A DNA stretch of 64,000 nucleotides from Sanguibacter hominis ATCC BAA-789 (GTDB lineage Bacteria; Actinomycetota; Actinomycetes; Actinomycetales; Cellulomonadaceae), in NCBI RefSeq assembly GCF_012396185.1, contig NZ_JAAXOW010000001.1, positions 868,001 through 932,000 of the forward strand, in the 5' to 3' direction. Below are positions 5,938-33,783 of the stretch, piece by piece. Below the pieces are notes generated by a model. It worked only from the letters and a program-made list of their open reading frames with translations. It was not told the origin of the DNA and made no database searches. Every line of letters starts with the position of its first letter. Positions within the stretch are counted from its first letter, which is position 1. The position numbers and the translations under genes were made by a program.

Positions 5938-8505
5938 TCAGGCGCCTGCGCTGAGCTGCCCCTCGCCGCCGCTCGAGCTTCCCTTCGAACCGGTCGACGC
6001 GGGAACCGCGATCGACTCGATCTCAGGAACCTCCGAGGTCGGTGCACCGGGCTTGCGCGGCTCGCCACGGAAGGTGAACTCCCCGAGCGGGGCCTCACCC
6101 TCGGCGTCGACCACGATGTTCTCGCCGGCTTTGAGGTCTCCGAAGAGGATCTTCTCGGAGAGCACGTCCTCGATCTCTCGCTGGATCGCGCGGCGCAGCG
6201 GGCGCGCGCCGAGCACCGGGTCGTAGCCCTTGTCGGCGAGCAGGCTCTTGGCGGCGGGCGTGAGCTCGACGCTCATGTCCTTGTCCCGGAGCCGCTTGTC
6301 GAGGCGGGCGATCATCAGGTCGACGATCTGGACGATCTCCTCGTGCGTGAGTTGCGGGAACACCACGACGTCGTCGACACGGTTGAGGAACTCAGGCCGG
6401 AAGTGCTGCTTGAGCTCGTCGTTGACCTTGCCCTTCATGCGCTCGTAGTCGGTCGACAGCTCGCCGGACGCCGCGAAGCCGGTCATCACGCCCTTGGCGA
6501 TGTCCCTCGTGCCGAGGTTCGTCGTCATGATGATGATCGTGTTCTTGAAGTCCACGACGCGGCCCTGCGAGTCGGTCAGGCGACCGTCCTCGAGGATCTG
6601 CAGGAGCGAGTTGAAGATGTCGGCGTGCGCCTTCTCCACCTCGTCGAACAGGACCACGGAGAACGGACGGCGGCGCACCTTCTCGGTGAGCTGGCCACCC
6701 TCGTCGTAGCCGACGTAGCCGGGAGGCGAGCCGAACAGGCGCGACACCGTGTGCTTCTCGGAGAACTCCGACATGTCGAGCTGGATGAGCGCGTCCTCGT
6801 CACCGAAGAGGAACTCGGCGAGCGCCTTGGCGAGCTCGGTCTTGCCGACACCAGTCGGCCCGGCGAAGATGAACGAGCCACCGGGACGCTTCGGGTCCTT
6901 GAGCCCGGCGCGCGTGCGGCGGATCGCCTGCGAGATCGACTTGATGGCGGCCTCCTGGCCGATGACCCGCTTGTGCAGCTCGGTCTCCATCTTGAGGAGC
7001 CGCGAGGACTCCTCCTCGGTCAGCTTGAAGACGGGGATGCCCGTGGACTGCGCGAGCACCTCGGCGATCAGGTCCTCGTCCACCTCCGCGACCGAGTCGA
7101 GGTCCCCGGACTTCCAGGCCTTCTCACGGTCGGCGCGCTGGGCGGTGAGCTGCTTCTCCTTGTCGCGCAGGCCGGCGGCCTTCTCGAAGTCCTGCTCGTC
7201 GATCGCGGACTCCTTGTCGCGGCGCGCCTCGGCGATGGCCTCGTCGAGCTCGCGGAGCTCCGGCGGCGCGGTCATGCGGCGGATGCGCAGGCGCGCGCCT
7301 GCCTCGTCGACCAGGTCGATCGCCTTGTCCGGGAGGAAGCGGTCGTTGATGTAGCGGTCCGCGAGGGTTGCCGCAGCGACGAGCGCGCTGTCCGTGATGG
7401 ACACACGGTGGTGCGCCTCGTAGCGGTCGCGCAGGCCCTTGAGGATCTCGATCGCGTGCTCGAGGTTCGGCTCGGCAACCTGGATCGGCTGGAAGCGGCG
7501 CTCGAGAGCGGCGTCCTTCTCGATGTGCTTGCGGTACTCGTCGAGGGTGGTCGCACCGATCGTCTGCAGCTCGCCGCGGGCGAGCATCGGCTTGAGGATC
7601 GACGCCGCGTCGATCGCGCCCTCGGCGGCACCGGCACCGACGAGGGTGTGGATCTCGTCGATGAACAGGATGATGTCGCCGCGGGTGCGGATCTCCTTGA
7701 GGACCTTCTTGAGGCGCTCCTCGAAATCACCGCGGTAGCGCGACCCGGCGACGAGCGCGCCGAGGTCGAGCGTGTACAGCTGCTTGTCCTTCAGCGTCTC
7801 CGGGACGTCGCCACGGACGATGTCCTGGGCGAGGCCCTCGACGACGGCCGTCTTGCCGACGCCGGGCTCACCGATCAGGACAGGGTTGTTCTTGGTGCGG
7901 CGCGACAGGACCTGCATGACGCGCTCGATCTCCTTGGACCGACCGATCACGGGGTCGAGCTTGCCCTCGCGGGCGGCCTGAGTGAGGTTGCGCCCGAACT
8001 GGTCGAGGACGGCCGAGCCGGCCGGCTGCCCCTCGTTCGGGGCGCCCGCAGCGACCGGCTCCTTGCCCTGGTAGCCGGACAGGAGCTGGATGACCTGCTG
8101 GCGCACACGGTTGAGGTCGGCGCCGAGCTTCGTCAGCACCTGGGCGGCGACGCCCTCGCCCTCACGGATGAGGCCGAGCAGGATGTGCTCGGTGCCGATG
8201 TAGTTGTGGCCGAGCTGCAGGGCCTCGCGGAGCGAAAGCTCGAGCACCTTCTTGGCGCGCGGCGTGAACGGGATGTGGCCCGACGGCGCCTGCTGGCCCT
8301 CGCCGATGATCTCCGTGACCTGCTGACGCACGGCGTCCAGCGAGATGTTCAGGGACTCGAGCGCCTTGGCGGCGACCCCCTCACCCTCGTGGATCAGACC
8401 GAGCAGGATGTGCTCGGTGCCGATGTAGTTGTGATTGAGCATCCGTGCCTCTTCTTGGGCAAGGACGACCACCCGACGCGCTCTGTCGGTGAATCTCTCG
8501 AACAT
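5938..8505 (-). CDS. clpC: ATP-dependent Clp protease ATP-binding subunit ClpC
   Basis: An 855-aa Hsp100 unfoldase that feeds substrates to ClpP. In order: a double Clp N-domain ([20 protein letters not shown] and the second [13 protein letters not shown] repeat), AAA module 1 with Walker [14 protein letters not shown] near residue 211, a UVR-like linker ([20 protein letters not shown]) near 430, and AAA module 2 with [14 protein letters not shown] near 550 and Walker [12 protein letters not shown]. The start is set at MFERF because of GAGGAG upstream and family length; an upstream in-frame extension of 56 codons is not family-like. It is monocistronic, ending at a strong hairpin. Confidence 0.97.
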
Positions 8506-8702
8506 CTGCTGCTCCTCACGAGCGGCGTTCACCCGCGCCGGATAGCGCACAGGTCTGACCGCTTCGACTCTAACCAAGCGAGGGGTGCCGTGATGCCCGT
8601 GTTCGCCATGGGCGTGACACCTCGCCGGAGCGGGCGCGGGGGCACCGTGACCGCCCGGCGGGACGTCCGTCACGTTCCGCGTCAGGCGCCGCCACGGTCA
8701 GG

Positions 8703-8708
8703 TACGCT
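8703..8708 (+). promoter_or_regulatory. -10 box of the leaderless cysteine leader
   Basis: TACGCT ends 6 nt before the GTG of the polycysteine leader, placing transcription start at the first codon. No convincing -35 hexamer is visible. Confidence 0.6.
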
Positions 8709-8714
8709 CCCACC

Positions 8715-8816
8715 GTGAACATCCGGCAGAGCGCTCTCCAGCCCGCGTCGACGTCGTCGTCGCTGCGCTGTTGCTGCCTGCCCGCAGGCACCTTCGGGTG
8801 TCCCTGTCAGCGCTGA
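8715..8816 (+). CDS. Polycysteine leader peptide, cysteine-responsive attenuator
   Basis: A 33-codon ORF starting with GTG. Codons 19-21 are TGT TGC TGC (three consecutive Cys), and two more Cys codons follow at 29 and 31. The peptide is serine-rich before the Cys run and ends in QR. TACGCT 6 nt upstream indicates a leaderless mRNA, so it is read as soon as it is made. Leaderless polycysteine short ORFs that sense cysteine by ribosome stalling are known in mycobacteria; this has the same layout. It lies 249 nt before a polar amino acid ABC operon, pointing to cystine/cysteine as that transporter's substrate and to control by Cys-tRNA supply. Confidence 0.8.
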   Translation: MNIRQSALQPASTSSSLRCCCLPAGTFGCPCQR

Positions 8817-8845
8817 GGCGCTGCCCCTGCACCCGGCTCGGGTGC
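8775..8845 (+). promoter_or_regulatory. Mutually exclusive hairpins at and after the Cys codons
   Basis: Hairpin 1 pairs TGCCTG (8775-8780) with CAGGCA (8785-8790) and includes the last Cys codon of the run. Hairpin 2 pairs GGCACC (8787-8792) with GGTGTC (8797-8802) around a TTCG tetraloop and shares bases with hairpin 1. A third, CAGCGC/GCGCTG (8808-8823), covers the leader stop codon. A fourth, GCACCCG/CGGGTGC (8829-8845), follows. A ribosome stalled on the Cys codons would open hairpin 1 and allow hairpin 2. Which form stops the mRNA or hides downstream sites is not resolved by eye. Confidence 0.5.
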
Positions 8846-9065
8846 CCGACGTCGTCGCGACCCCTGGTCGCCGTCGTCCCCTCCCCGTCGCTGACGTGAG
8901 CCTCCCCGCACCGGCCTGAGCGCTGGCGCTGCGAGCACCCGTCCGACACCTCCCCGGCGCTCCGCCCACCCTCAGGCTGCGCCTCCCGAACGGCCGCGAC
9001 ATCCTGGACCTTGCGGACATACGTCCGCCGGTCCGGCGTCGCTGTCACCACCCCTCAGGAGAACC

Positions 9066-9866
9066 ATGAACATCCGTAGGTCTGTCGCCGCCACCGCCGT
9101 CGTCCTGTCTGCGCTCGCACTCGCCGCGTGCTCGTCCGACGGCGACGAGAAGACCGCTGCCGACCCGGTCGCCGCACTCAAGGAGTCCGGCGTCCTCAAG
9201 GTCGGCACGGAGGGCACGTACGCGCCGTTCACCTTCCACGACCCGACGTCGGGCGAGCTGACCGGCTACGACGTCGAGGTCATCACGGCCGTCGCGGAGA
9301 AGCTCGGCGTCAAGCCGGAGTTCTCCGAGACGAAGTGGGACTCCATCTTCGCGGGCCTCGAGGCCAAGCGGTACGACGTCGTCGCGAACGAGGTCACCAT
9401 CAACGACGAGCGCGCCGCGAAGTACGACCTGTCCGACCCGTACTCCGTGTCCGTCCCGGTCGTGATCGTGCCGGCGGACGACACCGAGCTGACGGACCTG
9501 GCCGGCTTCGAGGGCCGCACCGCCGCCCAGACGGCGACGTCCAACTGGGGCGCGCTCGCGCGTGACAACGGCGCGAAGGTCGAGCCGATCGACGGCTTCA
9601 CGGAGGCCGTCACCGCCGTCCGGGACGGCCGCGTCGACTTCACTGTCAACGACAACCTCGCGGCCCTCGAGTACCTCACCTCGACCGGTGACACGAGCGT
9701 GAAGATCGCGTTCGAGATCCCTGAGGAGAAGGTCGTGCAGGCGTTCGCGCTGCGCAAGGACTCGGGTCTCGTCGCGGAGATCAACAAGGCGCTCGGCGAG
9801 CTCGCGGCCGACGGGACTCTCGCCTCGATCGGTGAGAAGTACTTCGGCACCGACATCTCGAAGTGA
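9066..9866 (+). CDS. Polar amino acid (predicted cystine) ABC transporter substrate-binding lipoprotein
   Basis: A 266-aa family 3 solute-binding protein. The signal peptide ends at lipobox LALAACSSD, with Cys near residue 22, so it is lipid-anchored outside the membrane. The domain starts at LKVGTEGTYAPFTFHD and keeps TGYDVEVITAVAEKLG and the hinge segment GRTAAQTATSNWGALAR. The start is fixed by CAGGAG 6 nt before ATG. It is the first gene of a three-gene operon with permease and ATPase. The family covers cystine, glutamine, arginine and similar amino acids; the upstream polycysteine leader favours cystine. The leader and this gene share the first codons VNIR/MNIR. Confidence 0.88.
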   Translation: MNIRRSVAATAVVLSALALAACSSDGDEKTAADPVAALKESGVLKVGTEGTYAPFTFHDPTSGELTGYDVEVITAVAEKLGVKPEFSETKWDSIFAGLEAKRYDVVANEVTINDERAAKYDLSDPYSVSVPVVIVPADDTELTDLAGFEGRTAAQTATSNWGALARDNGAKVEPIDGFTEAVTAVRDGRVDFTVNDNLAALEYLTSTGDTSVKIAFEIPEEKVVQAFALRKDSGLVAEINKALGELAADGTLASIGEKYFGTDISK

Positions 9867-9898: not shown

Positions 9899-10576
9899 AT
9901 GTTCGGCATCGACGACCAGCTGCAGCAGCTGCTCCTCGACTCGCTCGTGCCCCTGCTCGTCGGGGCCGTGCGCGGCACGATCCCGCTGACGCTGCTGTCG
10001 TTCACGATCGGCCTCGTCATCGCGCTCGTCGTCGCGCTCGCCCGCATCTCCCGGTGGCGCGTGCTGCGCTGGGTCGCGCGTGCGTTCGTGTCCCTCATCC
10101 GCGGCACACCGCTGCTCGTGCAGCTGTTCATCATCTTCTACGCGCTGCCGTCGCTGGGCATCGTGATCGACCCGTTCCCGTCGGCGATCGTCGCGTTCTC
10201 GCTCAACGTGGGCGGCTACGCGGCCGAGGCGATCCGGGCGGCGATCCTCTCGGTGCCGCGAGGGCAGTGGGAGGCTGCGCAGACGGTCGGCATGTCGTAC
10301 GCGACGACGCTGCGCCGCGTGATCCTGCCGCAGGCTCTTCGCGTCGCGGTCCCGCCGCTGTCCAACACGTTCATCTCGCTCGTGAAGGACACGTCGCTCG
10401 CGTCGTCGATCATGGTGACCGAGCTGTTGCGCAAGGCGCAGGAGATCGCGGCGCCGTCGTACGAGTTCCTTGCGCTGTACTCGCTGGCCGCCGTCTACTA
10501 CTGGCTGATCTGCACCGTGCTCTCGGCGGTGCAGTCGCGGCTCGAGAGCCGCCTGGAGAGGTACGTGACCGTATGA
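9899..10576 (+). CDS. Polar amino acid ABC transporter permease
   Basis: A 225-aa integral membrane permease of the HisM/GlnP type with about five membrane helices. The ATPase-coupling loop reads EAAQTVGMSYATTLRRVILPQALRVAVPP, here cited as segments EAAQTVGMSYATTL and RRVILPQALRVAVPP. RISRWRVLRWVARAFVSLIRG is the typical family segment before GTPLLVQLFIIF. The ATG at 9899 is chosen because GCGGAGG lies 7 nt upstream; a GTG at 9863 overlapping the previous stop would add 12 residues. Stop and next start overlap (ATGA), indicating coupled translation with the ATPase. Confidence 0.9.
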   Translation: MFGIDDQLQQLLLDSLVPLLVGAVRGTIPLTLLSFTIGLVIALVVALARISRWRVLRWVARAFVSLIRGTPLLVQLFIIFYALPSLGIVIDPFPSAIVAFSLNVGGYAAEAIRAAILSVPRGQWEAAQTVGMSYATTLRRVILPQALRVAVPPLSNTFISLVKDTSLASSIMVTELLRKAQEIAAPSYEFLALYSLAAVYYWLICTVLSAVQSRLESRLERYVTV

Positions 10577-11337
10577 CCGCCCCCGCTCTTCTCGAGGTCG
10601 AAGACCTGCACAAGTCGTTCGGCGACAACGAAGTGCTGCGCGGCATCGACCTGCGCGTCGACCGCGGCTCCGTGACGGTGCTGATCGGCCCGTCCGGTTC
10701 CGGCAAGACGACGCTGCTGCGCTGCCTCAACGCGCTCGAGACGCCGCAGCGCGGCGTCGTCCGGGTTGACGACGTCGCCGTGGACTTCGCGACGTCGCCC
10801 ACGCCGGCAGACCTGCGCCGGCTGCGCGCCGGCTCCGGGATGGTGTTCCAGGCGCACCACCTGTTCCCGCACCGCACGGCGCTGCAGAACGTGACCGAGG
10901 GGCCGATCTACGCGCAGAAGGCTCCGCGGGCACAGGCGGAGGCACAGGCTCGCGAGCTGCTCGCGAAGGTCGGGCTCGCCGACAAGGTGGACGCACTGCC
11001 TGCGCAGCTGTCAGGCGGGCAGCAGCAGCGCGTGGGGATCGCGCGGGCGCTCGCGCTGCGTCCGGCTCTGCTCCTCTTCGACGAGCCGACGTCGGCCCTC
11101 GACCCAGAGATCGTCGGCGAGGTGCTCACGGTCATGCGCGACCTCGCTGCCGAGGGCTGGACGATGGTCGTCGTCACGCACGAGATCCGCTTCGCGCAGC
11201 AGGTCGCCGACCACGTCGTGTTCCTGGACGGCGGGGTCGTCGTCGAGGAAGGCCCGCCGTCCGAGGTGCTGACCGCGCCCCGCGAGGAGCGGACGCAGCG
11301 GTTCCTCAAGCGCGTCCTGGACCCGCTCGGAGAGTAG
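10573..11337 (+). CDS. Polar amino acid ABC transporter ATP-binding protein
   Basis: A 254-aa ATPase that powers the uptake system. Walker A is LIGPSGSGKTTLLRCLN near residue 38. The Q-loop region is GMVFQAHHLFPHRTALQNV. The signature is LSGGQQQRVGIARALAL, Walker B is LLLFDEPTSALDPE, and the H-loop is MVVVTHEIRFA. The EAL...P insertions and length fit the HisP/GlnQ subfamily. ATG overlaps the permease stop. It is the last gene of the operon under the cysteine leader. Confidence 0.92.
   Translation: MTAPALLEVEDLHKSFGDNEVLRGIDLRVDRGSVTVLIGPSGSGKTTLLRCLNALETPQRGVVRVDDVAVDFATSPTPADLRRLRAGSGMVFQAHHLFPHRTALQNVTEGPIYAQKAPRAQAEAQARELLAKVGLADKVDALPAQLSGGQQQRVGIARALALRPALLLFDEPTSALDPEIVGEVLTVMRDLAAEGWTMVVVTHEIRFAQQVADHVVFLDGGVVVEEGPPSEVLTAPREERTQRFLKRVLDPLGE

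Positions 11338-33705: not shown

Positions 33706-33783
<78 letters not shown>

Follow-up and report, generated by a model that had tools for sequence, protein, structure and literature searches.

The ribosome stalled on the tnaC leader peptide of E. coli governs the access of Rho just after the leader stop codon. In mycobacteria, leaderless polycysteine ORFs are reportedly cysteine-responsive attenuators, as laid out by Canestrari et al. 2020 (Mol Microbiol 114:93). Passages of Shell et al. 2015 (PMC4633059) describe Cys-rich uORFs of leaderless transcripts before cysteine genes. The part of Seliverstov et al. 2005 (PMC1262725) that deals with cys leaders gives candidate leader peptides in Mycobacterium, in Propionibacterium acnes and before cbs of Bifidobacterium longum, and suggests pyrimidine-rich motifs and an involvement of Rho. 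A sequence-only reading of the DNA studied here had invoked the mycobacterial precedent for leaderless polycysteine ORFs, and the principle is indeed already published.

The window, by which we mean the whole stretch of 64,000 nucleotides analysed here, belongs to a genome of 2.98 Mb in 8 contigs and contains a short Cys-rich ORF followed by the genes of an ABC importer:

8703..8708, + strand: TACGCT, the -10-like box of the presumed leaderless promoter, ending six bases before GTG 8715
8715..8816, + strand: leaderless-type cysteine leader ORF, GTG plus 32 codons, then TGA (VNIRQSALQPASTSSSLRCCCLPAGTFGCPCQR)
8769..8777, + strand: Cys codons 19-21 (TGT TGC TGC), consecutive and the same in L002, the locus of the closest relative
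8799..8807, + strand: Cys codons 29 (8799) and 31 (8805), near the stop
8787..8846, + strand: predicted long hairpin, containing the arms of the second small hairpin described below and carrying the leader stop codon in its apical loop
8817..9050, + strand: C-rich, G-poor untranslated stretch between the leader stop and the binding-protein gene, a candidate Rho-loading region
9057..9061, + strand: AGGAG, Shine-Dalgarno sequence of the binding-protein gene, by sequence reading
9066..9866, + strand: cystine-type ABC substrate-binding protein, TcyJ/FliY-like (PF00497; PRK11260; 2yln)
9899..10576, + strand: cystine-type ABC permease, TcyL-like (PF00528; PRK15100)
10573..11337, + strand: cystine-type ABC ATP-binding protein, TcyN-like (PF00005; PRK11264)

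The leader ORF has 33 codons, with its TGA stop at 8814-8816, and its peptide has five Cys in 33 residues, including a CPC close to the end. This confirms the GTG ORF with Cys at 19-21 and two more that the sequence-only reading had picked out, and the TACGCT box that it placed 6 nt before the start is likewise there, at 8703-8708 and followed by GTG 8715. No Shine-Dalgarno sequence is present before this GTG. In L002 TACGCT is unchanged in surroundings (8680-8714) that are only 71% identical overall. A consensus scan of 8500-9200 for a sigma-70-type promoter found none, and it carries little weight on the promoter because its shuffles also give none; TACGCT is called a -10-like box on position and conservation. 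A leaderless start, with the transcript start that it presumes, would fit both the box position and the absent Shine-Dalgarno sequence. We propose, with a probability of roughly 0.8, that the ORF at 8715-8816 is the leaderless first cistron of the cystine-importer transcript and a cysteine-sensing leader.

Upstream of the locus lies a divergent gene, presumably clpC, with its frame at 5938-8673 on the - strand. The opening codons of the leader (8715-8726, GTG AAC ATC CGG) and of the binding-protein gene (9066-9077, ATG AAC ATC CGT) are near-identical, through chance or partial duplication. An Rfam search of the window matched a tRNA gene alone, at 33706-33779.

A gap of 249 bases separates the leader stop from the binding-protein ATG at 9066. 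The permease frame opens at GTG 9863, and ATG 9899 is preceded by GGAGG. Cystine models score best among NCBIfam models for all three subunits, though none reaches its curated cut-off: PRK11260 cystine SBP for the binding protein (178.8 bits, cut-off 312), PRK15100 cystine permease for the permease (255.6 bits, cut-off 300) and PRK11264 TcyN for the ATPase (326.2 bits, cut-off 406). Among PDB chains, 2yln matches the binding protein best (E 3.1e-61). Passages of PMC7170509 identify it as the L-cystine binding protein of N. gonorrhoeae and describe Glu-48 of FliY as pivotal for, and in contact with, L-cystine. The window protein has E49 in its TEGTYAPF motif, which is identical in 2yln; all 27 binding proteins that were aligned have this Glu, and we infer, by reasoning rather than by alignment, that it corresponds to FliY Glu-48. 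On the strength of these matches, to cystine models for every subunit and to 2YLN for the binding protein, cystine appears to be the likeliest substrate, independently of the leader. The cystine uptake that the sequence-only reading had deduced from the leader alone is thus supported by the transporter proteins themselves.

We surveyed the regions upstream of orthologous operons with a fixed rule: an ORF of 8-45 codons, containing either three Cys within five codons or a minimum of two within five and three overall, located within 450 nt of the binding-protein match and with its stop at least 50 nt before it. In the family survey, 87 of 221 genomes gave a binding-protein match with an E value of at most 1e-45; within the window's genus, G001 and G005 had no match at this threshold. 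We took 92 upstream regions, 89 of them in the window's family and three in other families of its order, and set aside two family matches that lie at contig ends (L031 and one in G196). The rule was passed at 40/92 loci, compared with 4/92 reverse strands and a shuffle expectation of 7.25/92. Every locus of the window's genus passed (g1, 4/4; shuffle expectation 0.065 per locus), followed by 21/24 in g21, 10/15 in g9, 2/2 in g14, 1/3 in g6 and 1/1 in g5. The six genera combined thus have a Cys-clustered short ORF before the operon in 39/49 loci, one of them (L155) implausible as a leader, and in 0/49 on reverse strands. Seven sister genera (g3, g7, g10, g15, g17, g19, g22) yielded no rule-positive leader in 40 loci, and the other families of the order one in three.

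These counts bear on the reading of ORF 8715-8816 as a chance ORF without function. The split by genus (39/49 vs 0/40), together with the low counts on reverse strands and in shuffles, makes chance an extremely improbable account, as do the position of the box, the absent Shine-Dalgarno sequence and the further Cys-rich leaders of this genome, upstream of cysK and of a reductase gene, that are described below. In its favour, the window and L002 are about as similar in the leader DNA (identity 0.892) as in the gap (0.889) and the upstream intergenic DNA (0.877), so that no extra constraint is visible there, and the rule, being loose, is also passed by 16/64 regions from non-actinobacterial named relatives. 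The regions in question come from 80 named relatives, 78 of them with enough upstream sequence (L057 and L093 lacked it); 4/14 actinobacterial regions also pass, which makes the rule by itself weak outside the window's family. Only one of the five mycobacterial relatives among the 14 passes, and it does so with an implausible ORF. Since this adds to 0/40 in the sister genera, the link between leader and importer is lineage-bound, and the seven leader-less genera argue against a universal link. Within those bounds, the sequence-only reading had looked to related genomes for the same ORF: Cys-clustered ORFs, mostly of leaderless layout, precede the orthologs in the window's genus and five others, and none of the four loci of the window's genus is without one.

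Several loci outside this pattern were recorded. In Achromobacter (L106, L114, L118, L128), a short ORF with RLFHCCCTPVS stands about 240 bases before a cystine-type binding-protein match; it occurs at 4/7 loci looked at, and L130 has HCCST. This ORF may be off-transcript, because a highly conserved AT-rich block, possibly the promoter, stands downstream of it. Upstream of paralogous binding-protein genes, the rule is passed at 1/12 loci. The passing locus (L027, from G005 of the same genus) carries MFLDTQHRMCDLGRHVRLAVECRRPGRCCRSTR, starting 6 nt after TATGGT, and is plausibly a cysteine leader before a different importer; a scan found no leader before the paralogous binding-protein gene of the window's genome (L226). 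At L017 (G021), also without a leader, the binding-protein ATG sits 6 nt after TCGAAT in the same promoter type, as if the gene itself had become leaderless.

For the shape of the leaders we used a curated list of 43, which adds five with fewer Cys (L048, L052, L140, L163, L185) and omits the rule-positive L155 and L008. The last Cys lies 0-7 residues before the stop in 43/43, and Cys makes up 159 of 1075 residues. A Shine-Dalgarno-like 4-mer precedes 0/43 of these leaders vs 41/43 of the binding-protein genes. A T....T hexamer ends 6-7 nt before the start in 42/43 leaders vs 36/1162 other start codons, a count that is partly circular because the box decided the choice of start in ORFs with several. 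Between the window and the closest relative (L002, MNIRQSALQPASTSSSTRCCCLPAAVVGCTCQR), nine of 34 codons differ and five change the residue, yet no Cys is lost; Cys codons 29 and 31 are retained, the latter as a synonymous TGT/TGC change. Leaders at more distant loci include L005 (MSGHDHTPARTALAVRASRVSCCPACCLRCC), L034 (MTTTSRDALVVACRGCRCCR) and L139 (MLRTTASCTPAPRARVQRCCCCPSRSC). Across genera they have only their design in common, a Cys cluster near the stop, while the spacing of the Cys varies. The drift expected by the sequence-only reading, a conserved Cys run in an otherwise changing peptide, is therefore what the relatives display.

Five Cys in 33 residues and a CPC near the end could also suit a Cys-rich small protein that acts as a protein, e.g. 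in metal or thiol handling. Such a role is very unlikely here: counterparts keep little but the Cys cluster near the stop, with variable Cys spacing, and the ORF has no match in Pfam or NCBIfam at E 0.001.

In a quick tree of 42 binding proteins, leaders occur in both of the groups that a deep split (support 99) separates. The window lineage joins g21, and L005/L006 of the same genus fall across the split, so that one genus contains two importer lineages that branch separately and each have a leader. Fifteen leader-free proteins form one group (support 98).

How a cysteine-sensing leader would act on the importer genes is less clear-cut, and two alternative output steps were weighed. In translational attenuation, as in M. 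smegmatis, a stalled ribosome would prevent the formation of a structure that hides the ribosome-binding site of the binding-protein gene; passages of PMC13236596 provide the precedent, for several cysteine biosynthetic genes. Taken as a whole, the 351-nt leader RNA has a somewhat better fold than its shuffles (z = -2.49; 3/100 shuffles as good), a point in favour of this output step. Constrained folding of 32 loci, however, predicted alike accessibilities with the ribosome on the Cys codons (0.534) and on the stop (0.537), the accessibility of Shine-Dalgarno and start rising by more than 0.05 in 6 loci and falling in 6. In the window, the predicted accessibility of AGGAG (9057-9061) is nearly constant whatever the ribosome position on the leader. 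For GC-rich RNA, folding at equilibrium tests such a switch only weakly, and we regard translational attenuation as a tentative possibility.

The sequence-only reading had also drawn attention to overlapping hairpins at the Cys codons. Both are present, with arms TGCCTG (8775-8780) and CAGGCA (8785-8790) in one and GGCACC (8787-8792) and GGTGTC (8797-8802), separated by TTCG, in the other, and they overlap so as to be mutually exclusive. They are neither unusually stable (z = -0.62 for 8760-8850 and 0.03 for 8715-8820) nor conserved. The predicted fold absorbs them into the longer hairpin at 8787-8846, while the same stretch of L002 folds differently and lacks that hairpin in its minimum-energy fold; its role is unproven, given the z of -0.62 and its absence from L002. 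In the folding of 8715-9065 that had been suggested, the leader RNA as a whole does somewhat better than shuffles, and neither the small hairpins nor a switch found support. We rejected the Cys-codon hairpins as a switch on three grounds, namely their z of -0.62, the different fold of L002 and the null result of constrained folding.

A strict consensus scan of 8500-9200 found no intrinsic terminator with a U-run, and its shuffles give none either. A classical trp-type attenuator was set aside, as the scan shows no terminator-like site in 8500-9200. With no switch from folding and no terminator from the scan, the output step is without structural support.

Rho prefers C-rich, G-poor RNA, and the gap after the leader has this composition (C 0.46 and G 0.30 at 8817-9045). 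For composition statistics we dropped L185, L045 and near-duplicates (31 loci left), and then L148 (30 left). In 30/30 of these non-redundant leader-positive loci C exceeds G in the gap between leader and gene, with a mean difference of 0.198. The difference is -0.025 upstream of the promoter (paired Wilcoxon vs gap, 1.9e-9) and 0.0 at the corresponding position of 40 orthologs without a leader. Across the leader stop the mean C content climbs, being 0.36 over the final 20 nt of the leader and 0.52 over the 20 nt that follow the stop. C also exceeds G in the gaps before cysK (6/6 genus members) and before the reductase gene (2/2 with a leader).

This composition is consistent with Rho-dependent transcription attenuation, in which Rho, once leader translation has ended normally, would load on the C-rich stretch and stop transcription ahead of the importer genes, and stalling close to the leader stop would block Rho or alter the structure of the gap. 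For mycobacterial cys leaders, Seliverstov et al. put Rho forward in 2005 as a weak prediction, in the relevant passages of PMC1262725. The controls are possibly untranscribed, however, in which case the bias could be a general mark of untranslated leaders. A weaker excess of C over G also occurs in the leader ORFs (0.121, 30/30 loci) and over the gene's first 50 codons (0.088, 27/30 loci); for 12 regions upstream of paralogs the values span -0.14 to 0.20, with 3/12 at 0.10 to 0.20. Moreover, the bias extends up to the gene and is mostly uncovered by a stalled ribosome, and a rut region located past the stall would not on its own account for the relief of termination. Because of the possibly untranscribed controls and the largely uncovered gap, the C-rich gap is a weak hint at Rho, a lead rather than a finding. 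We consider Rho-dependent attenuation a real contender that falls somewhat short of even odds, and slightly prefer early Rho-dependent termination within the C-rich gap to a hidden ribosome-binding site as the output step.

In the mechanism that we infer for the cysteine-sensing leader, from transcript start through stalling to the sign of the response and its output step, a 70S ribosome would start at the 5' GTG of 8715-8816. With ample Cys-tRNA it would pass the Cys codons and end at 8816, leaving the 249-nt C-rich gap bare and the importer genes little expressed. With scarce Cys-tRNA it would stall on Cys codons 19-21 or on 29/31, and the importer genes downstream would be expressed more.

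Cys-rich leaders also stand before other genes of the same genome:

L188:1219-1293: cysK leader of the window's genome, a Cys-rich ORF with a Shine-Dalgarno-like sequence
L225:2682-2771: leader before a nitrite/sulfite-reductase-family gene of the window's genome (MARLDTTLPRPTATPRLVMPGRPRTCRCC, ending RTCRCC*)

The cysK leader (VHTCAAAPVLCCQPCCCAAPCRCL, before cysK at G000:C1:219448) has eight Cys in 24 codons and lies 183 bases before the ATG. It does not look leaderless, because GGGAGG directly precedes its start. Cys-clustered leaders precede cysK in 6/6 genus members (L188; L227-L231), and none is visible by eye before a second cysK-like gene (L189). The reductase leader has the layout TTGACG-17-TACGTT-7-ATG, with good -35 and -10 elements. 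The first protein of the operon behind it has ferredoxin-nitrite reductase as its best model, below the cut-off, and the operon continues with PAPS-reductase-family genes. This leader is rule-positive in 2/6 genus members; in the other four (L234-L237), no leader was found by the rule before the reductase gene.

The cysK leader was found through a TGYTGYTGY place just upstream of the gene. This motif occurs at 140 forward and 127 reverse places in the window's genome, 30 of which were taken as loci. A scan of these 30 loci and L186-L194 for boxed Cys ORFs returned one ORF only, on the reverse strand inside L186/L187, which we take for chance; the scan misses the cysK leader because that leader has no such box.

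Taken together, the cysteine leaders of these actinobacteria, whether leaderless or with a Shine-Dalgarno sequence, might jointly coordinate cystine uptake, cysteine synthase and the operon headed by the reductase gene, with Rho working on the C-rich untranslated gap behind each leader stop, with an output different from that of the mycobacterial regulon and with other control in the sister genera. We regard this wider scheme as speculative and rather unlikely to hold in full. At the level of the locus, the results would show cysteine-sensing leader ORFs outside mycobacteria, and in uptake as well as in synthesis. They also suggest that a substrate is predictable from a regulatory peptide, here with a prediction that the sequence of the transporter itself bears out. 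The sharp division of genera into those with and those without the leader, and the C-rich gap, make the choice between ribosome-binding site and Rho testable by comparison.

Unlike the leader proposed here, tnaC senses tryptophan, does so via the nascent peptide and not through a shortage of charged tRNA, and serves a catabolic operon. Our literature search found no cysteine leader before a cystine importer; it did not cover the loci of Canestrari et al. 2020, and absence is therefore unproven. The cys leaders of Seliverstov et al. resemble the window's in having Cys runs near the stop and no conserved terminator hairpin; in contrast, they precede biosynthetic operons, and the passages of PMC1262725 that describe them mention no leaderless start and no importer. 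In Streptomyces lividans, according to the sections of PMC8079986 on metL, this gene encodes a leaderless leader peptide before an amino-acid ABC importer, metNIQ, and the sequence printed there ends CMCRRMCAF, so that it has clustered Cys like the window's leader. Its authors assign metL to methionine, and the transporter is another one; its resemblance to the cysteine leaders described here suggests that it may sense cysteine instead. As far as the available descriptions of the mycobacterial leaderless polycysteine ORFs go, the window leader shares with them the presumably leaderless first cistron, the Cys cluster near the end and the cysteine-related operon downstream, and differs from them in its lineage, its cystine importer, its C-rich gap and the lack of a predicted ribosome-binding-site switch. 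The window leader would thus follow a principle known from mycobacteria, with a plausible difference in the output step.
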